This document shows, piece by piece, positions 9,232-33,745 of a DNA stretch of 64,000 nucleotides (the stretch's first letter is position 1; each line of letters starts with the position of its first letter). The translations under genes and the position numbers were made by a program. The notes under the pieces are model-generated. The model made no database searches and was not told the origin of the DNA. It was given only the letters and a program-made list of their open reading frames with translations. The DNA comes from a virus. Location: positions 1 to 64,000 of the IMG/VR virus record IMGVR_UViG_3300031537_000001; one strand, 5' to 3'.

Positions 9232-11433
9232 TCAAATATCAAATCCTTCTACTGAAGAATAGTTTTCCATAAAAAAAGGATCATTAGCATACTCATCTCT
9301 TTCCCTATTACTATTAGAACCTTTTAAACCCTCGGCTAGTTTAATTTTATTCGCGCGTAATATAAATAGCATATTACCAGCAGATATTCTATCAAAGTTT
9401 CCATTAATATTCCATTGAGAACATTCCTTTAAATATCCAATAGATCTTATGCTATGTAACTTTAAAGTAATTTCTTCTTTATCTAATTCTGTGGTTTCAA
9501 TTCTTGCAGAACTCATCCAATCTGCTTGTAAGCGTCTACCCCATTTATTAATATTCGGAGAAGGTGGAGTACCTTTAGATTTATTACCAGTAGTATGAAT
9601 AGTTTTTACATAATCCATATCTCTTAAAGATTCAGGAGTATCGGCAAGATATCGCAAAGCATTCATTCGTTTAAAGTAATCAAATAAACCTTTCAGTTTA
9701 TTCTCATAATTTAGTTCAGCATTATAAAGTAAAGCAAGTTTAAGAGATTTTTCGAAATTAAAATCAGCACTATTTTCCCTACCAGTATACTCTGCTACAA
9801 TTTCATCTGTAAATAAATCCATTATAAGTATAGAAAATAAAGAAGTTCCAATATCATCGTCAACAGGGTCAATTCCGCCAATATATCTACCCCAGATTGG
9901 TTTAGTATCTCCTGGTAAAACTTTAGGTAGTTGAAATATCTCTATGGCTCCGGTTGTATCTTTACCTTTCATTGGATAATCCCTAATGGGGGAAATATCA
10001 AATCTGGGTCTAAATTCAACATTATTCATACCGGTATATAAAATCTCTCCTACATAATGTGGGCCAACAAAGAACTCACGGGTTGGTTCAATCCTGGCTA
10101 AATAACTTTTAATTTCCTGTACAGGAAATACTGTACCTTCAGTTCTCATTACAGCTTCCTGTGGAGTAAATGGTTCTTCAGCTATTGTCTGGGCATAGTC
10201 AGTAGGATTAGATACACTATATTTAATCTCAAACCTTTTTACTAATACTTCATATACAGCTTTTACAACATCTGAGTTACCATCTTTATCATAACAATCT
10301 TCTCTATTTAAGTAATCAGGTATAAACATACCGCAAGTTCCTATCTCAGAAGTCTTATCAAATATATTAGAAAGTCGAAGTATACTATAGGCTTTAGGTT
10401 TATAAAACAATTCTTCAAGACCTTCAAAGTTTACACCTTCTTCACCACCAGTACCAAAAGCTAACATAAATCCAAATACTCTATTACCAGATTCAACAGA
10501 CTTTTGAGCTAACCTCCATGATTTAAGTATATGGGGAAAACTTCCACTTTCCTCCCATAGAATTAATTTACCTCTTTTTCCACGAGCTTTATCCGGGTCA
10601 TTCTTTAAAGTAACCCCAATTATTTCAGATAAGAATCCACCTTCAGAAGATGTTCCTGCTTTTTTATACCCGGCTTGCTTATGCATACCTTGCAAAGAAT
10701 CTGTAATAATTAGTCTTTTGGCAAATCCTACTTTATCTACTATAAAACTATTTATATCCCATACCTTATTTAATATACCATCAAGAGTTAAATAATCTTT
10801 ATCAGAAGCTAAAGCAAAGGATTTAGATTTTTTAATAAGATGATAATTTCTAAGACACATTGAGGCAGCCTTATAAGAATATCCTTTACCCCTGGCCTTT
10901 AAAGTTACACCATGCTTACCAGCTTTCTCAGCCTGTTCTACATAATGAAAAAATAAATAATCTCCATCCCAAAAATCAGGAAAATCAGTAATCCTTTCTG
11001 CTTGTACTGTACCATCTTTAGAACGTTCACCAATAATTTCAGTTCTTAAAATAGGAGAATAGTTTAAATAAAAATAGTGATAGCCAGTTATCCACTCACC
11101 ATCACTTTTTCTTACATAACCTTCTAAACATCTTCGTTTTTCTTCATCCCAAAATTTTCTATAAGGAGAAGAAGGAGCTTTAGACGGAAAAGCATCTGTA
11201 TAAACTCCTGTTTTTTTATAAGTCAAGGCTGATTCTCTGAAGTAATCAGTATCTTCAAGCATATGAGGTTTAGCCAAATTAACTATTATCTTTTCACTAG
11301 AATCTTTAGGCATATCTTTAGCCCTAATAGTTCTATTAGACATCCAGTTTAATAGTGGAATAGAATCAAATAACTCAACTATCTCTCCAAGAATCTCCGA
11401 ATTAGTTATATTTAAATCATTTAATTTCGTCAT
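9232..11433 (-). CDS. terL: Terminase large subunit
   Basis: The 733-residue protein has a deviant Walker A segment, RGKGYSYK (about residues 181-188), a Walker B-like KLILWEESGS (about 290), and a C-terminal nuclease part beginning YIGGIDPVDDD, whose aspartates would bind metal. This is the large-terminase plan: an ATPase motor that pumps DNA into the prohead plus an RNase H-like nuclease that cuts the concatemer. Downstream come the portal, scaffold-like and capsid genes. The start overlaps the 66-residue upstream gene by 17 bases. No separate small terminase subunit was recognised. Confidence 0.85.
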   Translation of the reverse strand: MTKLNDLNITNSEILGEIVELFDSIPLLNWMSNRTIRAKDMPKDSSEKIIVNLAKPHMLEDTDYFRESALTYKKTGVYTDAFPSKAPSSPYRKFWDEEKRRCLEGYVRKSDGEWITGYHYFYLNYSPILRTEIIGERSKDGTVQAERITDFPDFWDGDYLFFHYVEQAEKAGKHGVTLKARGKGYSYKAASMCLRNYHLIKKSKSFALASDKDYLTLDGILNKVWDINSFIVDKVGFAKRLIITDSLQGMHKQAGYKKAGTSSEGGFLSEIIGVTLKNDPDKARGKRGKLILWEESGSFPHILKSWRLAQKSVESGNRVFGFMLAFGTGGEEGVNFEGLEELFYKPKAYSILRLSNIFDKTSEIGTCGMFIPDYLNREDCYDKDGNSDVVKAVYEVLVKRFEIKYSVSNPTDYAQTIAEEPFTPQEAVMRTEGTVFPVQEIKSYLARIEPTREFFVGPHYVGEILYTGMNNVEFRPRFDISPIRDYPMKGKDTTGAIEIFQLPKVLPGDTKPIWGRYIGGIDPVDDDIGTSLFSILIMDLFTDEIVAEYTGRENSADFNFEKSLKLALLYNAELNYENKLKGLFDYFKRMNALRYLADTPESLRDMDYVKTIHTTGNKSKGTPPSPNINKWGRRLQADWMSSARIETTELDKEEITLKLHSIRSIGYLKECSQWNINGNFDRISAGNMLFILRANKIKLAEGLKGSNSNRERDEYANDPFFMENYSSVEGFDI

Positions 11434-11617
11434 TTTGTACGATTCTTATTCTTGAATCTTTTATCAATTCTCTTAACTCTTCTCTTTTGGACCAACAAAG
11501 AACTGTAACTTTTTTTATGTTACTCCATTCTTTATTATATTTATCTTGTATTTGATATTTTGTCCCTACTTCAAAATCTAAAATGGATTCCGGAATTATA
11601 TAACTATTCTTACTCAC
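11417..11617 (-). CDS. Small protein upstream of TerL
   Basis: A 66-residue protein overlapping both neighbours (TerL and the DHH gene), which supports translation. It is mixed-charge with no recognised motif. Its position directly before TerL leaves open a packaging-related role, but it is short for a small terminase and shows no helix-turn-helix by eye. Confidence 0.6.
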   Translation of the reverse strand: MSKNSYIIPESILDFEVGTKYQIQDKYNKEWSNIKKVTVLCWSKREELRELIKDSRIRIVQNDEIK

Positions 11618-12680
11618 CTGATCTTATTAACTTTAACATTGTTTCATTATCACATACAAATCCAGACGCTTCTCTATGACCCCCTCCTTCATACTGTTTA
11701 GCTATAATACTACAATCTACTTTTTCGTTATCATTATATAATGACCACATCCACTTACCATCTTTATACCAGAAACAAGCAAATCCATCATATCCATCTT
11801 TATGATAATCTATTCCAAAATTAATAGGATTAAATCTTTCTTGATTTACACATAGAAATTTATATTTTGCATTACCTGATATGTGTGTGAAAGGATTATC
11901 TGGAAATACATCTGACTTAGGAATCTCTAGTTTAGTTTTTATAAATTCAATAAGAAAAGCTTTCTTATAAGTTTGCTTAGCTTCTGTACAAAGATATTCA
12001 TAAATATCTCCTCCAGAAAGTTGAATAGCTTCCACTGTATCAAATACAGCTCCTTGTACTTTTTCTAATCCTTGTATTGAATCTATAAGTTTTTCATAAC
12101 ATTCTTGATAATTAGACATACATGCTCTTGCCCCATATTGAAATTCTAATACTTTTTGCTCTTCATCAGTTCCTTTATGACCAAAACAATCATATCTTCC
12201 TAATAGTCTAACTATTTTAGGCATTGTTTCATTAGGAAAAAGATATTTCCAAGTAAGTTCGCAAGCTGCAAAATTAGTATCTTGTAACCCCTCATAAAAA
12301 GGAATATTATCATAACCTTGATTATCATTTATAGCAGATATATGATGGTCTATCCAAATTAGTTCTTTATCCACTATATGCCAAAGTCTTGACATTTCTT
12401 CTTTAGGAAAACTAACATCACACATTATAACTTTATCATATTCTGATAAATCTGGAATAGGATCTCCATAATCATACCCTAAAAAATAAATTGTTAGATC
12501 TTTAAATTTAGAATTTATTTTAGATTCCAATTCTTGTCTATCTTCTATACTAAGGGTATTTACAACATTTAAGTTAACCTCTGTTCTTTTAGTATTATTT
12601 TTATAAAACCAATGTTTAACTATTGCTGCACTCATCCATCCGTCTAAATCCCGACTGTGATACACACAAACTGTTTTCAT
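11610..12680 (-). CDS. DHH-family phosphoesterase
   Basis: The 356-residue protein has the DHH superfamily signatures in order: YHSRDLDG (residues 8-14, metal-binding DxD), DYGDP, an aspartate in VIMCDVS, then IWIDHHIS (the DHH motif), and a C-terminal GGGHREASGF (DHHA1-type substrate-binding). The family hydrolyses phosphodiester bonds in short oligoribonucleotides, cyclic dinucleotides or 5' DNA ends (NrnA, GdpP, RecJ). Which substrate this one uses cannot be told from the sequence; it lacks the extra RecJ domains. It sits upstream of TerL on the minus strand. Confidence 0.85.
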   Translation of the reverse strand: MKTVCVYHSRDLDGWMSAAIVKHWFYKNNTKRTEVNLNVVNTLSIEDRQELESKINSKFKDLTIYFLGYDYGDPIPDLSEYDKVIMCDVSFPKEEMSRLWHIVDKELIWIDHHISAINDNQGYDNIPFYEGLQDTNFAACELTWKYLFPNETMPKIVRLLGRYDCFGHKGTDEEQKVLEFQYGARACMSNYQECYEKLIDSIQGLEKVQGAVFDTVEAIQLSGGDIYEYLCTEAKQTYKKAFLIEFIKTKLEIPKSDVFPDNPFTHISGNAKYKFLCVNQERFNPINFGIDYHKDGYDGFACFWYKDGKWMWSLYNDNEKVDCSIIAKQYEGGGHREASGFVCDNETMLKLIRSGE

Positions 12681-19235: not shown

Positions 19236-19478
19236 ATGAAAACAATTAAAATCAACAACTCAAAAGAAGCATCAAAATATAATAAAGAATGCTGGAAAAG
19301 AACAAACGCTAATAAAACAGGCAGCACTTATATGCCTGTAAAGAAAGAATTTATTTCCTTTTTCAAACATAATAACATTGAGATTAATGTAGATGAAATT
19401 CAATCATGTACAATGGTTTCTCAATTATTGGAAGCGGAAATAATAACGAAAACAGAAAAATATACACTAATATTTTAG
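19236..19478 (+). CDS. Unknown small protein (80 aa)
   Basis: An 80-residue Lys/Asn-rich protein, MKTIKINNSKEASKYNKEC..., preceded by the leader AACTAACTAAAAATTTGC that recurs in part at 19,552. Function unknown. Confidence 0.55.
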   Translation: MKTIKINNSKEASKYNKECWKRTNANKTGSTYMPVKKEFISFFKHNNIEINVDEIQSCTMVSQLLEAEIITKTEKYTLIF

Positions 19479-19513
19479 TCTATAAAGTTTCTGCAAATTC
19501 TTTGTAGGACACG

Positions 19514-19538
19514 CCCCGGCTTTGAGACAAAGCCGGGG
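19514..19538 (+). terminator. Very stable GC-rich hairpin
   Basis: CCCCGGCTTTG pairs perfectly with CAAAGCCGGGG (11 bp) around a 3-base loop, followed by TTTCTGGG. Its G+C content is far above the surroundings. Most likely a terminator for the gene ending at 19,478. Confidence 0.65.
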
Positions 19539-19569
19539 TTTCTGGGTGAAAACAATAAAAATTTGCAAA

Positions 19570-20808: not shown

Positions 20809-21492
20809 ATGAATTATAAAATTATAGCAGATTTAGATATATTAAATAATTTCATTAAATGGCTTCCAGAATTAGAGTATAATGAAACTTTTTATGTTTG
20901 TCTATTTGCTTGTAAAAAATATTGTCAACATTTGGTGCATATTGCATCAGATAAAGGACAGATGAAACGATTTACATCTAAAAAAGATTATCTTATTCAA
21001 AAGATTAAACAATTAGAATGTGAAGTTGGTAATTATACTGTAAAAGGTGTAATAGCTCCTCAAGAAAGCTTAGTATTATACATTAATCCTAATCCGAGGA
21101 ATGTAGAAAAAGCTGCTAAAAATTCTTTAATACATTTAGCTCATTTAATAACAAAACCTTATAGTGGATGGAATCCTCAAGCAGAAGTTATTTCTGAAAT
21201 TCAAAAAGCTAAAAGTAGAACTATATATTTTGATTTAGATTTTGATGGTGTTGAAATTGACTTTATAAAATTTCATTTATTGGAAGATATAACTAAAGAA
21301 GCCTGTCATTTTCTTAAAACAAGAGGAGGTTTTCATTTATTAATAGAACCAAGTAAAATAGAAAAAAAATATAAAAAAACTTGGTATAAAAAGGTTATAT
21401 CTTTACCTGGAATAGATATTAAAGGAGATAATATGATTCCTGTACCAGGATGTTATCAAGGTAGTTTTATACCTCGTTTTATAAAAACATGA
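20809..21492 (+). CDS. Archaeo-eukaryotic primase (AEP/PrimPol)-like protein
   Basis: The 227-residue protein shows the three AEP motifs in order: YFDLDFD (residues 140-146, catalytic DxD), [10 protein letters not shown] (171-180, the sxH nucleotide-binding motif with His176), and [14 protein letters not shown] (201-214, the hD motif with Asp203 followed by the characteristic proline-glycine stretch). AEPs make RNA/DNA primers or copy past lesions. It is shorter than most PrimPols and has no helicase domain. A TOPRIM primase is encoded separately at 39,685. The stop codon is inside the terminator stem that follows. Confidence 0.65.
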
Positions 21493-21540: not shown

Positions 21541-21603
21541 ATAAGTTCATTGATATTATTTCAAAAGTTTGTTTGGACGTGGGTTCGATTCCCATCAGCT
21601 CCA
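21541..21603 (+). ncRNA. ssrA: Permuted tmRNA, acceptor piece (3' half)
   Basis: The segment GTTTGGACGTGGGTTCG (21,570-21,586) and ATTCCCATCAGCTCCA (21,588-21,603) reproduce the tmRNA T-arm and 3' acceptor strand: T-stem GTGGG/CCCAT, T-loop TTCGATT, acceptor strand CAGCTCC and discriminator A. CCA is not encoded. Only 60 bases separate it from the upstream terminator, so no 5' half can precede it. TATTATTT (21,554-21,561) can pair with AAGTAATA (21,847-21,854) of the coding piece, reforming helix P2. The 5' boundary is estimated. Confidence 0.8.
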
Positions 21604-21821
21604 CATATGGGGTGTTTTTGGTTGATTTTATATTTAAAGCTAAACGAATACTAGTATAAGTTTAGGAAAGGGTATAAATGAAGTGAAAATTCGTTGTAAC
21701 ATGTACCAATAGTGCGAACACCTCGCCTGCATCGATTTCGCCAATTGATAATGAATGTTGATCTGAATTAACAGGGATTTTGAGGAAGTTACGGTACTTC
21801 CAACATTCATTTTTAAAACAT
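21604..21821 (+). other. Intervening spacer of the permuted tmRNA gene
   Basis: About 218 bases between the mature 3' and 5' ends, with no convincing gene. It holds stems CTAAAC/GTTTAG (near 21,640-21,665), GCGA/TCGC (near 21,714-21,726), and AATGAATGTTG/CAACATTCATT (11 bp, near 21,750-21,811) enclosing GGAAGT/ACTTCC. It starts with TGGGGTGTTTTTGGTT, an imperfect second copy of the tmRNA 5' end, possibly a relic of the duplication that permuted the gene. Confidence 0.55.
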
Positions 21822-21966
21822 GGGGCTGATTTTGGTTTTGACAGCAAAGTAATAGAAGTAAAGGAGAGCTTATTAGCTGTGTAAACGGCAACATAATTAA
21901 TTTATTTGATAGGAAACTAGCAATGGTTGCCTAACAACGAGACTGAGGGAAGCGAAAGTTCCCTCA
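21822..21966 (+). ncRNA. ssrA: Permuted tmRNA, coding piece with tag reading frame
   Basis: GGGGCTGATTTTGGTTTTGA (21,822-21,841) followed by CAGC matches the universal tmRNA 5' end (GGGGCUGAUUCUGGAUUCGACAGC). GGGGCTG pairs in all 7 positions with CAGCTCC of the upstream acceptor piece. A frame GNIINLFDRKLAMVA ends in TAA at 21,932-21,934; this resembles plastid and cyanobacterial degradation tags more than the ...NYALAA tags of ordinary bacteria. GCAA/TTGC around the tag end and an 8-bp hairpin TGAGGGAA/TTCCCTCA (about 21,943-21,966) follow. It would rescue stalled ribosomes using host SmpB. The 3' boundary is estimated. Confidence 0.78.
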
Positions 21967-21969
21967 CAT

Positions 21970-22042
21970 TGAGAAATAACTCAGTTGGTAGAGTGACACG
22001 CTGTTAACGTGTAAGTCGTAGGTTCGAGTCCTACTTTCTCAG
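21970..22042 (+). tRNA. tRNA-Asn (anticodon GUU)
   Basis: A full cloverleaf of 73 nt: acceptor TGAGAAA/TTTCTCA, D-arm CTC...GAG with loop containing GTTGG, anticodon stem ACACG/CGTGT with loop CTGTTAA (GUU, U33 present), T-arm GTAGG-TTCGAGT-CCTAC. CCA is not encoded. It lies 4 bases after the tmRNA coding-piece hairpin, so both may be processed from one transcript. Confidence 0.92.
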
Positions 22043-22046
22043 CTAT

Positions 22047-22138
22047 AATAAACTTCTATTCAAGTAATTATGATGTAGAAACTCTCAAAAGGGACCAATG
22101 AAGTAATTATTAAATACATGTTAGAATAGGAGTTTATT
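22047..22138 (+). ncRNA. Closed-helix structured RNA 1
   Basis: AATAAACTTCTATTC (22,047-22,061) pairs with GAATAGGAGTTTATT (22,124-22,138), 15 bp with one G-U. It begins 5 bases after tRNA-Asn. The interior holds two copies of AAGTAATTA and a possible ATGTA/TACAT helix. No start codon frame of note inside. Confidence 0.6.
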
Positions 22139-23040: not shown

Positions 23041-23156
23041 TAAACTCTCATCCAATTTGCGGGTTAAATATGTAGAGGTGCTCTTAGTTATGTACAGACG
23101 ACGGTGAGACTGAAAAGAAGTGATACAGTTAGAGATAGCAACCCTATGAGAGTTTA
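23041..23156 (+). ncRNA. Closed-helix structured RNA 2
   Basis: TAAACTCTCAT (23,041-51) pairs perfectly with ATGAGAGTTTA (23,146-56). Inside are GGGTT/AACCC (23,061/23,140), the hairpin AGAG-gtg-CTCT (23,074-84) and ACTG/CAGT (near 23,108-23,130), giving a multi-branched fold. No reading frame spans it. Confidence 0.6.
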
Positions 23157-23162
23157 TTTAAA

Positions 23163-23258
23163 ATATTATCAAAAACCAGTAATGGAAGTTTGTAATTAAT
23201 GCCATCTGAAATATGGTGAAATTCGTTACGGCTAGATTACAAACTATTTTGATAATAT
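23163..23258 (+). ncRNA. Closed-helix structured RNA 3
   Basis: ATATTATCAAAA (23,163-74) pairs with TTTTGATAATAT (23,247-58), 12 bp perfect. A second perfect 10-bp helix AGTTTGTAAT/ATTACAAACT (23,187/23,236) and an inner GCCAT/ATGGT (23,201/23,213) stack above it, separated by a 12-base one-sided internal loop. Confidence 0.6.
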
Positions 23259-23418: not shown

Positions 23419-23547
23419 ATGAAATATAAATCAATTAAAGTGTGTTGTAATATTATTAAAACTACAACATCTTCGAGAGAAAAATTAATTGCTCAATTTT
23501 TACTATTAAGATTGATTAATAAAGGTATACGTAAAGACATTAATTAA
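23419..23547 (+). CDS. Unknown small protein (42 aa)
   Basis: A 42-residue basic, helical frame, MKYKSIKVCCNIIKTTTSSR.... A promoter-like TATATTTG lies only 2 bases before the ATG (23,409-23,416), so either the message is leaderless or the box is coincidental. The upstream 100 bases in the same frame use a TTG start and look non-coding. Confidence 0.4.
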   Translation: MKYKSIKVCCNIIKTTTSSREKLIAQFLLLRLINKGIRKDIN

Positions 23548-23550
23548 AGA

Positions 23551-23710
23551 GTTGTTGTACAACTATCCAGTAAGTTCCTGGCCAATTTAACTGTCAATGA
23601 CTGTGTTAGGTTGAGAAATTTAACCTCACCAACTACTTAGGTATTGGTACAGATGAAAACGAGGTGAATGGAGTTAGCTGTTGAGACTCCATAGAATAAA
23701 GTATCTAAGT
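23551..23710 (+). ncRNA. Structured RNA, copy 2 of the CCAGTAAG-hairpin class
   Basis: After a GTTGTACAAC palindromic hairpin comes ACTATCCAGTAAG...CTGGCC (23,562-23,583), matching copy 1 at 19,059-19,080. Further stems are GGTT/AACC near 23,609-23,625, a 9-bp closing helix ACTTAGGTA/TATCTAAGT (23,635/23,702) and the inner hairpin TGGAGT/ACTCCA (23,669/23,686). The conserved head with a divergent tail suggests one RNA family. Confidence 0.6.
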
Positions 23711-23877: not shown

Positions 23878-23903
23878 ATTCAAATATGAAAGTATTTGTC
23901 TTA

Positions 23904-23984
23904 TAATTTTATTATTAATTGTGGGATTCATCAAGCGAGTTTCCTTAATAAAATTAATTGTGCAATCCTGGGTTGATAACCAGG
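23904..23984 (+). ncRNA. Closed-helix structured RNA 7 and adjoining hairpin
   Basis: TAATTTTATTA (23,904-14) pairs perfectly with TAATAAAATTA (23,946-56); then CCTGG (23,967-71) pairs with CCAGG (23,980-84). It lies directly before the gene at 24,004 and could also act as its 5' leader. Confidence 0.45.
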
Positions 23985-24003: not shown

Positions 24004-24207
24004 ATGATTAAAAATAAAGATTTAGCAATAGAAAAACTTCCGTCAAGAATAAGATATTATTTATTAGATTGGAAAGATTCACATATGGATGAATATGTTT
24101 ATAAATATGGTGAAATAAGTTTATGTAATTTAACATTAAAGCAATTAAAAGGTTTATATACTTATGTATGTATAAAAGATGCTGAATTATTAATAGGGAT
24201 AAAATAA
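24004..24207 (+). CDS. Unknown small protein (67 aa)
   Basis: A 67-residue protein, MIKNKDLAIEKLPSRIRYYL..., with good codon pattern. Its stop codon overlaps the first base pairs of the large four-way-junction RNA that follows, so translation and RNA folding may interfere. Confidence 0.6.
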   Translation: MIKNKDLAIEKLPSRIRYYLLDWKDSHMDEYVYKYGEISLCNLTLKQLKGLYTYVCIKDAELLIGIK

Positions 24208-24439
24208 AGATTTGGTAACTAAATAATTAAAGATGACATTCATAATTATTTAGTCAATATTGTTGTTTAATATGTAAAATAAAAAGTATGCTTACAACCC
24301 TTATTTGGTAATGTTGAAATAGTATATAGATTATTAAACAACTTTATTGTGTTTTGATTAATACGAAAGTATAATAGCAGGATGAAGTGATAGTACGTAA
24401 TGTTCAAATCTATCATTAATCAAAACTTATCAAATCTTT
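24206..24439 (+). ncRNA. Four-way-junction RNA, about 235 nt
   Basis: The base helix is AAAGATTTGGTAA/TTATCAAATCTTT (24,206/24,427; 13 bp, one G-U). Three arms follow without gaps: CTAAATAATTA/TAATTATTTAG (24,219/24,243), GTTGTTTAATA/TATTAAACAAC (24,262/24,332; inner CAAC/GTTG hairpin at 24,296), and GTTTTGATTAAT/ATTAATCAAAAC (24,351/24,415; inner ATAC-GAAA-GTAT tetraloop hairpin and GATAG/CTATC). All three arm helices are perfect over 11-12 bp. No reading frame of note crosses it. Function unknown. Confidence 0.75.
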
Positions 24440-24448
24440 TTAAAATAT

Positions 24449-24639
24449 AAAATCTTTCTGCTTATGAAGCATTTAATATGCAGCCAATTAAGTTTGTGAA
24501 CCGTTAGTCGTAGATTTGGCAAATCAGTTTGTGGATTAAGATAGATTTACTATGTAATGCATAGTCCAATTGTAGTAGCTAAAATGCGAATAGGCGGTTA
24601 AGTAACTATTACCTTGCCAGGTACAGAAGGATTTTTTTT
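24449..24639 (+). ncRNA. Six-helix RNA ending in a U-run, about 190 nt
   Basis: The base helix AAAATCTTTCTG/CAGAAGGATTTT (24,449/24,624; 12 bp, one G-U) is followed by eight T residues, so it doubles as a terminator. Inside are GCAT/ATGC (24,469), AACCG/CGGTT (24,499/24,595), GATTT/AAATC (24,513), ACTATG/CATAGT (24,549) and TACCT/AGGTA (24,610). It starts 9 bases after the four-way-junction RNA. Confidence 0.7.
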
Positions 24640-24759: not shown

Positions 24760-24767
24760 TAGTATAA

Positions 24768-24806
24768 CAAAACTACTTAATTAAATTTTTAAGTAGTTTT
24801 GTTTTT
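24768..24806 (+). terminator. Rho-independent terminator
   Basis: CAAAACTACTTAA pairs with TTAAGTAGTTTTG (13 bp) followed by TTTTT. Confidence 0.85.
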
Positions 24807-26423: not shown

Positions 26424-26500
26424 ACTCGACTAAGCGAGTATAAATAGGTGTTAAGCTTAGTGCGTTGAAAAGGTCACATTAATAATTAATACATATAAAA

Positions 26501-30828: not shown

Positions 30829-31452
30829 ATGAACTTAGAAGCATTAAAAAATGTAAAACTAGCTGAAGTAGAAGAAGTTAAAGGTAGTTCTAAAATTAGT
30901 ATTAAAACACCTGAAAAAGGTGATATACTAATTACGAATACTGGTAAAATCTTTTACTCGGAGAAGTTAGAAAAATTAGTAGGAACAGGTGGAATTGATT
31001 TTACCGATTCAAGAAACTGGCTAATGTATAAAAAATTAGGAAATGATCTTCCTGAAGTCATTTTCTTCAGTACAGTAAAAGATCCATCTAATCCAAAATT
31101 AGGAGCTAAAACAGATGTTAAGAAACAATCTACAAATGCTCCTATAGTATTTGTTAAAAGAGATTTAATTCCTTTACTTATCGAAATGTATAAAGTAGAT
31201 AAAGATTTTCATTATGTAGAATTACAAATTGAATGGGATTATCCTTTAACAAATGCTTCCGGTATTTATAGTTTACCTAAAACTGTTAGTAGTGGTGATC
31301 AAAAAGGTGAAGTTAAATATGTCCGCAGAGAATCTACAACCTTTTATCCAATTAGTATTATACACAATGATACTACTACTGATGTTGAAGAAACTATAAA
31401 TATTGAGAATACTGAAGATGAAAACATTGAACAGATTTTAGATAATGAGTAA
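30829..31452 (+). CDS. Unknown protein upstream of DNA polymerase (207 aa)
   Basis: A 207-residue protein: the first 170 residues are a mixed alpha/beta domain and the tail (TTTDVEETINIENTEDENIEQ) is acidic, like the C-terminal tails of single-stranded DNA-binding proteins and polymerase partners. It overlaps the polymerase start by 8 bases. A replication accessory role is inferred from this. Confidence 0.6.
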   Translation: MNLEALKNVKLAEVEEVKGSSKISIKTPEKGDILITNTGKIFYSEKLEKLVGTGGIDFTDSRNWLMYKKLGNDLPEVIFFSTVKDPSNPKLGAKTDVKKQSTNAPIVFVKRDLIPLLIEMYKVDKDFHYVELQIEWDYPLTNASGIYSLPKTVSSGDQKGEVKYVRRESTTFYPISIIHNDTTTDVEETINIENTEDENIEQILDNE

Positions 31453-33745
31453 ACTCAATTATATAGGATCTACGAGCTATACTACAAAGTATAGCTTTTG
31501 TTCTTCTTTTGAAGAGTTTCTTATATGGTTTTCTGAGCAACAAATATTAGGTTTGGATGTTGAAACTACTACTCATAAATCTATATTAGAAAGAGAATTA
31601 AGATCTGTACAGTTTACTGACCAGTTTGAAAATATTACCTGGGTTATCCAATGGTCATCTTTATCTTCAGACCAAAAATCTAAATTATTAAATCTTCTAC
31701 AAACTACCAGTGCATTATTAATAACCGTTACTACTTTTGAATATGTTTTATTTCGCAAGTATGGTGTAAGACTTAGAAATATTTGGGATGCATTTGCAGT
31801 AGAAAAGTTACTATATGCAGGTAAAACTTCTGAAAAAGGATTTTTTAGTCTTGCCGGTATTTATAAAAGAAGGTTTGATATTGATATGAGTAAGGCTCTT
31901 CAATTATCTTTTGATGATGATATATTTACTGATGAGAAGATTGCTTATGCAGCATTGGATACTTTAAAATTAGCTGAGATAAGAAGACTTCAGATTGAAG
32001 AAGCTAAAGCTCATGATAAAAGTGTTGGATTTAAGTCTCGAAAAGGACTAATAAAAACAATCTGGTGGGAAAATGAATTTTCTAAAGTATTAGGAGATAT
32101 TGAATTTGATGGAATACAGTTTGATCAAAATATATGGAGAAAGAATTATGATTTGGCATTACCAGTTCTTCAACAGAAAGAGAGGGAACTTAATAATATT
32201 GTCCTAAATAATTTTTCCTTACAAAGTTTAATTGAGAATAACTTTTATGTTCCTGAAGATAGATTTGATAGAATTTGGACTAGTTCAGCAAAAAAGAAAT
32301 TGGTATTATCCTGGATATTTCCAGATATAAAAGAAACTTCTAAAGAAGGATTAAAAAAGTATTTACAAGCACATGATCCAGATTTTCCTGAAGGGTTAAA
32401 GATTACAGGAAAAACCTGGGAATCTAGTGAGTATTATAACAATTTGGATATTTTATCCGATTTTTCTATACTTAAACTTATTATAAAGAATGGAACTAAA
32501 GAAGACTTTTCTCCTTTACTTGATACATTAATTGAGAATAATTTTAGGGATAAATTAATCGAAAATAATTTATTAATTCCTAAAGATACTGTTACAATAA
32601 ATTGGAATAGTTCTGATCAGAAATTAACTATATTTAAATGGATAAATGCAAGTATAGAATCTACCAATAAAGAAACTGTTACAGCTAATCTACTTATGCA
32701 TGAATTATTTCCTAAGTATCAGGAATATTCTGATATAATTAATCTTGTAACTACATTTGGAATTAAATTTCTCGAACATGTTGATAGTGATGGTAGAATA
32801 AGAACCAGTTTTAATTCAGTATTGGCTACTGGTAGATTATCTACTCGTGCGCCAAGTTTATTGAACATTCCAAAGATGCAAATTTATAGGGATGCTTTTA
32901 TAGCTACTCCGGGATATAATTTTGTTGGAGCTGACTATAGTGCCGAAGAATTAGTCATTATTGCATTAATGTCTGGTGAAACTACCTGGTTAGATGCTTT
33001 AAAACAAGGTTACGATATCCATAGTTCAAATAGTGTTTTAATATTTAAAGATAAATGGACTAAAGCTGCTGAAGAAGATTGTGATTTTGTTAAATCAAAA
33101 CAGAAATGCAAATGCAAACTTCATAAAGAGTATAGAGATAAAGAAAAGACTATTGCATTTGGATTATCTTATGGATTAACTGCTTTTGGAGCAGCTCCTA
33201 AACTAAATTGTTCTAAGACTGAGGCTCAGGTTTTGATAGATGAATTTTTTAAAGCTTTTCCACATATTAAAATTAGGTTAGAGGAGTTTGCAGACTATGG
33301 TGTTAAACATGGACTTATTTTGGAACCGGTTTTAGGTAGACCACGATTTTATGATGATTGGAAGATGGCAATTATAGGTAAACTTAGCTATAAACAAATG
33401 AATGAATATGTTAAGATGTCTTATAGTGAGCAAAAAGAAGCTGAACAACAGAAAAGTTCTATAATGAAAGAAAGTATGAATCATCCTATTCAAGGAGCCG
33501 GGGCAAGTTTATTAAAGATTTCCGGTGTTTTACTTAGAAGGTTCATTCTTAATAACTCTTATCAGGAAAAGATTCGATTATTGCTTCCTATTCACGATGA
33601 ATGGGCCACTGAATCCATTAAAGAATTATCTGTAATGTGGGCAAAAAAGCTTAAATATTATATGGAACTTACAGGAAAACTCGGATTAAAATCTGATTTA
33701 CTGAAAGCTCAACCATATATTGATAGTAAATGGACTAAAGATTAA
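31445..33745 (+). CDS. polA: DNA polymerase, family A, with 3'-5' exonuclease
   Basis: The 766-residue protein has an exonuclease domain with LGLDVETTT (residues 36-43, ExoI DxE) and YAALDTLKLAE (ExoIII). The polymerase domain has motif A FVGADYSAEEL (about 492), motif B with KTIAFGLSYGL (about 567) and motif C LPIHDEWATE (about 714) whose HD holds a catalytic aspartate. Between the domains lies a long insert with two similar blocks (SLIENNFYVPEDRFDRIWTS and KLIENNLLIPKDTVTINWNS). It is the replicative polymerase of the phage. Overlaps the upstream gene by 8 bases. Confidence 0.93.
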   Translation: MSKLNYIGSTSYTTKYSFCSSFEEFLIWFSEQQILGLDVETTTHKSILERELRSVQFTDQFENITWVIQWSSLSSDQKSKLLNLLQTTSALLITVTTFEYVLFRKYGVRLRNIWDAFAVEKLLYAGKTSEKGFFSLAGIYKRRFDIDMSKALQLSFDDDIFTDEKIAYAALDTLKLAEIRRLQIEEAKAHDKSVGFKSRKGLIKTIWWENEFSKVLGDIEFDGIQFDQNIWRKNYDLALPVLQQKERELNNIVLNNFSLQSLIENNFYVPEDRFDRIWTSSAKKKLVLSWIFPDIKETSKEGLKKYLQAHDPDFPEGLKITGKTWESSEYYNNLDILSDFSILKLIIKNGTKEDFSPLLDTLIENNFRDKLIENNLLIPKDTVTINWNSSDQKLTIFKWINASIESTNKETVTANLLMHELFPKYQEYSDIINLVTTFGIKFLEHVDSDGRIRTSFNSVLATGRLSTRAPSLLNIPKMQIYRDAFIATPGYNFVGADYSAEELVIIALMSGETTWLDALKQGYDIHSSNSVLIFKDKWTKAAEEDCDFVKSKQKCKCKLHKEYRDKEKTIAFGLSYGLTAFGAAPKLNCSKTEAQVLIDEFFKAFPHIKIRLEEFADYGVKHGLILEPVLGRPRFYDDWKMAIIGKLSYKQMNEYVKMSYSEQKEAEQQKSSIMKESMNHPIQGAGASLLKISGVLLRRFILNNSYQEKIRLLLPIHDEWATESIKELSVMWAKKLKYYMELTGKLGLKSDLLKAQPYIDSKWTKD

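Follow-up and report, generated by a model that had tools for sequence, protein, structure and literature searches.

A four-way-junction RNA with a conserved base and variable arms in a noncoding island of a crAss-like phage

In a crAss-like phage, one noncoding island contains a structured, noncoding four-way-junction RNA, which is supported by its folding energy, by the asymmetry between sense and antisense strand and by homologues in two other phages. Comparison of the three sequences indicates that the base stem and the first arm form a conserved chassis, which carries replaceable arms. We read the element as a free-standing, trans-acting phage noncoding RNA with a fixed chassis and varying arms, and put the probability of this reading at roughly 0.45. 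The analysed stretch (the window) comprises 64 kb out of a 93,292-bp virus record. The features discussed here are compiled in Table 1.

Table 1. Position of the RNA, its parts, its homologues and further noncoding features; coordinates without a contig name refer to the window.
Feature	Position	Strand	Remarks
Four-way-junction RNA, whole unit	24206..24439	+	Fold; homologues L007, L046
Base helix, 5' strand AAAGAUUUGGUA	24206..24217	+	Pairs with 24428-24439; invariant in three phages
Base helix, 3' strand UAUCAAAUCUUU	24428..24439	+	UACCAAAUCUUU in L007 (G-U to G-C)
Arm 1	24218..24254	+	Outer 10 bp ACUAAAUAAU/AUUAUUUAGU invariant in three phages
Arm 2	24255..24349	+	5 bp, UU/UU internal loop, 11 bp, inner hairpins
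Arm 3	24351..24426	+	10-12 bp basal helix enclosing GAAA hairpin and 7-bp hairpin
Boundary motif TCTTTTTAAAATATA	24435..24449	+	Between four-way RNA and gamma; exact at L007 5801 and 6086, unit edges
Gamma, second structured RNA	24449..24635	+	Linked to four-way RNA in three genomes; present in a fourth
Terminator-like hairpin	24766..24803	+	Downstream of four-way RNA and gamma
Homologue in L007	L007:5624-5805	+	
Homologue in G006	L046:10757-11035	-	
tRNA-Asn	21970..22043	+	Upstream end of island
Possible unit	22047..22138	+	Closed by 15-bp helix; z -2.9
Possible unit	23041..23156	+	Closed by 11-bp helix; z -0.3, weak
Possible unit	23163..23258	+	Closed by 12-bp helix; z -4.5
F1, conserved noncoding element	23539..23590	+	94% to L007:5411-5462
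F2, conserved noncoding element	23619..23692	+	79% to L005:187-258
F3, conserved noncoding element	23879..23914	+	92% to L005:3472-3507

Genomic setting

Crassvirales are among the most abundant gut viruses. The window phage is crAss-like, its capsid protein matching Pfam Crass_capsid with an E value of 1e-151, and the nearest named capsid (47%) is that of Cellulophaga phage phi14:2, which belongs to the Steigviridae within the Crassvirales. The island with the four-way RNA is surrounded by small genes and further noncoding stretches, in a region that has a primase-like gene (20809-21492) on one side and the DNA polymerase (31445-33745) on the other. A tRNA-Asn, a permuted tmRNA and a Pistol ribozyme were detected nearby by ARAGORN and Rfam; they share the neighbourhood and the + strand with the four-way RNA and are unrelated to it in sequence and fold. 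In the tmRNA (21545-21934, + strand; Rfam RF04321, 52 bits at a cut-off of 47), which is not called by ARAGORN, the T-arm half stands before the 5' half, and a possible tag frame, read by eye, ends in ...KLAMVA followed by UAA. The Pistol ribozyme (26424-26478, + strand; RF02679, 55 bits) lies about 2 kb downstream of the four-way RNA, flanked by two small genes. The primase-like protein has a weak match to phrog_14949 and recurs, at 42-80%, in crAss-like phages as well as in contigs of 308 and 334 kb (L007, L008, L009, L057, L058, L059), a distribution which, judged from these sequences, points to exchange between phage lineages. A scan for sigma-70 promoters returned candidates that were no commoner than in shuffled sequences.

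Structure of the four-way RNA

The four-way fold is more than chance would give. The whole unit has a minimum free energy of -54.6 kcal/mol compared with -34.0 +/- 3.9 for dinucleotide shuffles (z -5.28), and none of 200 shuffles was equally good, which bears out the fold under the energy check proposed in the initial annotation. There it had also been called the clearest fold of the window; its energy excess is indeed strongly extreme, but it ranks second, not first, among 547 segments of 234 nt on the + strand. The top-ranked segment, at 19306, consists of a reading frame and a GC-rich terminator-like hairpin (CCCCGGCTTTGAGACAAAGCCGGGG, 19510-19541, + strand), which accounts for part of its excess and stands out in this AT-rich genome.

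Pair probabilities were computed in a context of 660 nt, and the means for the principal helices range from 0.95 to 0.99. The base helix has 12 bp (0.96); the 13 bp described at first hold as a maximum, as the 13th pair (24218-24427) competes with arm 1. Arm 1 has 12 bp without gaps (0.96). The helix lengths given for three exact and gapless arms were recovered, whereas gaplessness does not extend to arm 2, where 5 bp (0.99) and a UU/UU internal loop precede the exact 11 bp (0.97). The basal helix of arm 3 has 10 bp (0.95) with a maximum of 12 bp, and the AUAC-GAAA-GUAU hairpin noted earlier is present within this arm at a mean pair probability of 0.68. The junction is as tight as had been claimed: no base is unpaired between base and arm 1 or between arms 1 and 2, and one each between arms 2 and 3 and between arm 3 and base, two in total. 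Coding potential had been denied, and on the + strand no ORF of at least 40 aa occurs within the RNA, but a 49-aa ORF exists on the - strand (24267-24416). In the homologues the interior has diverged too far for a reading frame in the RNA to be conserved.

The strand asymmetry bears on the question whether the element acts as RNA at all. A DNA-level element, such as a cruciform or a replication or packaging site, would yield the RNA fold as a by-product of its inverted repeats, and inverted repeats of 12-13 bp in AT-rich sequence are what is seen. However, the + strand is clearly more stable in the window (-54.6 vs -42.8 for the - strand), as holds for each of the three homologues and for nine out of ten tested units, and two of the three homologues carry a G-U pair in the base helix on the + strand. 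The higher stability of this strand and the varying pair being G-U on it argue for a + strand RNA, and we regard a DNA-level element as the least probable of the explanations weighed here.

Homologues in other phages

The IMG/VR collection was searched for homologues by pattern and by neighbouring proteins, and two true homologues were obtained. One lies in L007, a 93.5-kb crAss-like contig whose primase-like protein is 80% to that of the window, and the other in G006, a 334-kb contig for which the corresponding value is 58%. The crAss capsid and polymerase were looked for in G006 and not found; it is a giant phage unrelated to the crAss-like window phage. G006 encodes a Dda-like helicase as well as RtcB, an RlaP-type RNA repair nucleotidyltransferase and a tRNA nucleotidyltransferase, so that its RNAs (L046:10580-11620, - strand) stand in a genome with an RNA repair set.

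Further copies were not obtained by any of the searches. The exact pattern GATTTGGTAACTAAATAA gave six matches in IMG/VR, two of them genuine, and the other four were rejected as one unrelated coding sequence. Three new IMG/VR matches of a looser gapped pattern are backed by neither sequence nor model, and a gapped pattern had no match in the genome collection. Across five named crAss-like phages the models R1 and R2 gave no credible match, the R1 match in phi14:2 being rejected for its position inside a primase/helicase gene. A blastn comparison of the island with 50,697 named phages retrieved the tRNA-Asn only, apart from chance matches. Alignments of the polymerase and of the primase-like protein widened the sample to more phages with noncoding islands and added no copy of the four-way RNA.

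According to the model search each genome holds one copy, with a length of 234 nt in the window and of 182 and 279 nt in the homologues. Base and arm 1 barely vary among the three, whereas arms 2 and 3 change wholesale. AAAGAUUUGGUAACUAAAUAAU and the 3' base strand are almost invariant, as is AUUAUUUAGUCAA, the partner of AAAGAUUUGGUAACUAAAUAAU in arm 1; the arm-1 interiors of 17, 61 and 45 nt (window, L007, G006) are unrelated in sequence. The start of arm 2, CAAUAUUGUUGUUUAAU, is common to the window and G006 only; the architecture of this arm differs in the homologues, and its full form is seen in the window only. Taken alone, the L007 form (z -5.64) folds into base, arm 1, an 11-bp arm 3 and, in the place of arm 2, just a 4-bp hairpin. 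Arm 3 is built from different sequences in the window and in L007, and a helix matching it and flush with the junction arises in 0.1% and 0.2% of shuffled interiors, respectively (p 0.001 and 0.002); in G006 no junction-flush arm 3 was significant against shuffled interiors. Support in two phages hence covers base, arm 1 and arm 3, and full support for arm 2 comes from one; for G006 it is limited to base and arm 1. The four-way form, as initially described, is clear in the window and acceptable in L007, but in G006 clarity ends with base and arm 1. Homologues devoid of compensatory changes or with translated frames across the region, which had been named as counter-evidence, are not what we found, although the covariation is thin: point by point, the three sequences show a single change, G-U to G-C, in the base helix.

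Comparison with known RNAs

Rfam, at gathering and at permissive thresholds, assigns no family to the four-way RNA. The covariance models of GOLLD and ROOL do not match it, and neither ARAGORN nor the Rfam tRNA model calls a tRNA. By these tools GOLLD, ROOL, tRNA, tmRNA and self-splicing introns were ruled out; in the case of the intron, the Rfam models are without a match and the RNA lies between units and does not interrupt a gene. GOLLD is a phage RNA often located near tRNA genes; part of it is conserved and part less so, and many members exceed 800 nt (PMC12286853). Our RNA resembles it as a phage RNA without assigned function that has conserved and less conserved parts and tRNA genes in its vicinity (tRNA-Asn 2.2 kb upstream, tRNA-Gln 3.1 kb downstream). 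It differs in its size of 182-279 nt, in its conserved part, which is the base with the first arm, and in the missing Rfam match. ROOL, also an RNA of phages and prophages with many stems and often found by tRNA islands, is far larger, and again Rfam gives no match. No loop is conserved across the three homologues, and nothing like the conserved quaternary kissing loop of ROOL was seen.

The initial annotation had hinted at a multimer of the ROOL/GOLLD kind, which the missing Rfam match and the much smaller size leave unsupported. An RNA assembling into such a homomultimeric structure would fit a phage RNA with many stems near tRNA genes, as GOLLD and ROOL are (PMC12286853), but the arms, which would be expected to bear the contacts between copies, are not conserved, and we consider this assembly very unlikely. 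The tRNA cloverleaf is likewise a four-way junction with a terminal closing stem and almost no unpaired bases; the four-way RNA, in contrast, has stems of 10-16 bp and lacks anticodon and T-arm features. The words noncoding and intergenic are absent from a 2023 review of the Crassvirales, in which only tRNAs and introns are named (PMC10136315), and such an RNA is not described for crAss-like phages in the open-licence literature searched. Novelty was judged against open-licence papers and Rfam 15.

Possible role

The base helix overlaps the stop codon of the preceding 67-aa gene, as noted at the outset, by 2 nt (the AA of the TAA at 24205-24207). This start within a stop codon, the end-to-end packing of units with the boundary motif between them and the terminator-like hairpin downstream at 24766 would suit a cis element, either a structured 3' end of the message of this gene or a leader or spacer, with control over how a polycistronic transcript is stabilised, terminated or processed. 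In L007 and G006, however, the RNA comes after other noncoding units, so that the stop-codon overlap is not conserved, and base and arm 1 have a longer invariant sequence than a stability hairpin needs. We therefore regard a cis element as unlikely. The genes adjoining the RNA differ among the three genomes, which favours a role in trans; a chassis whose sequence is kept while the gene neighbourhood is not speaks for an RNA acting in trans and against a cis element.

For a free-standing RNA acting in trans, a + strand transcript through the noncoding island would yield the four-way RNA as one unit, with its ends presumably set near the A/U-rich boundary motif. The fixed chassis would consist of base helix, tight junction and arm 1, for which conservation is observed, and would hold out the arms, for which variation from phage to phage is observed. 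The chassis may be recognised by a constant factor of host or phage, and the variable arms may contact a target that varies with the host; such a pairing of a constant with a host-dependent partner fits an RNA whose chassis is fixed and whose arms are replaced. The single most likely role would be to act as decoy or adaptor towards a host factor involved in RNA handling or defence, which we propose tentatively and with considerable doubt. A chassis-and-arms RNA that occurs in two unrelated phage lineages and is linked to gamma is a defined object for experiment, and it points to a portion of phage genomes missed by protein-based annotation.

Gamma, boundary motif and further island elements

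Gamma accompanies the four-way RNA in all three genomes in varying order: the window has it 9 nt and L007 about 0.8 kb downstream of the four-way RNA, and G006 about 0.1 kb upstream. RNAalifold on gamma from four phages gave 37 pairs, ten of which show compensatory changes, both partners differing in one or more sequences, and a model built from these pairs has strong matches in those four phages only. The one match of a gamma pattern in the genome collection, within a GC-rich gene, was dismissed as chance. In the loci searched, the 15-mer TCTTTKWAAAATATA of the boundary motif is exact solely at unit edges (window 24435, L007 5801 and 6086). A form shorter by one base, TCTTTGAAAATATA, lies within the G006 repeat AAAGTTCTTTGAAAATATAAA, which has two exact occurrences in 334 kb, each directly preceding a unit. 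The motif may be a promoter or a processing signal.

Further island elements recur in shuffled order, F1 in the window and L007, F2 and F3 in the window and L005. The F2 hairpin (23668-23692) has an identical 11-nt loop, UAGCUGUUGAG, in the window and L005, and its stems, AUGGAGU/ACUCCAU and UGUAAGU/ACUUACA, differ by four compensatory pairs. Three more conserved noncoding elements, not seen in the window, occur as pairs in related crAss-like phages (L007:6218-6399 with L056:7698-7835, L005:59-104 with L056:8630-8671, L005:1157-1196 with L007:5283-5319). In windows of 160 nt, the folding of whole islands is not above that of coding sequence (mean z -1.04 vs -0.86, p 0.25). The idea of islands densely structured throughout was dropped on this ground, and the claim for structure rests on single units with homologues.

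A small mobile RNA-encoding element which spreads among phage genomes without benefit to the phage would account for the shuffled order of units and for a four-way RNA common to unrelated phages. However, terminal repeats and an intron core were not found, the Rfam intron models are without a match and the model detects a single copy per genome, so that we think such a selfish cassette quite improbable. Somewhat more doubtful than the decoy or adaptor role is a wider proposal, in which the island might be a common pool of structured RNA cassettes that can replace one another and carry the same boundary signal; crAss-like phages and unrelated giant phages, presumably infecting the same hosts, would exchange them. 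The cassettes, with conserved chassis and rapidly replaced arms, might together form an RNA-based layer of takeover or counter-defence. At L050:5427-7127, the frame of the DNA polymerase is broken after residue 566, with the downstream part remaining encoded (L056 match 10001-12676); this break is perhaps an intron or an insertion.
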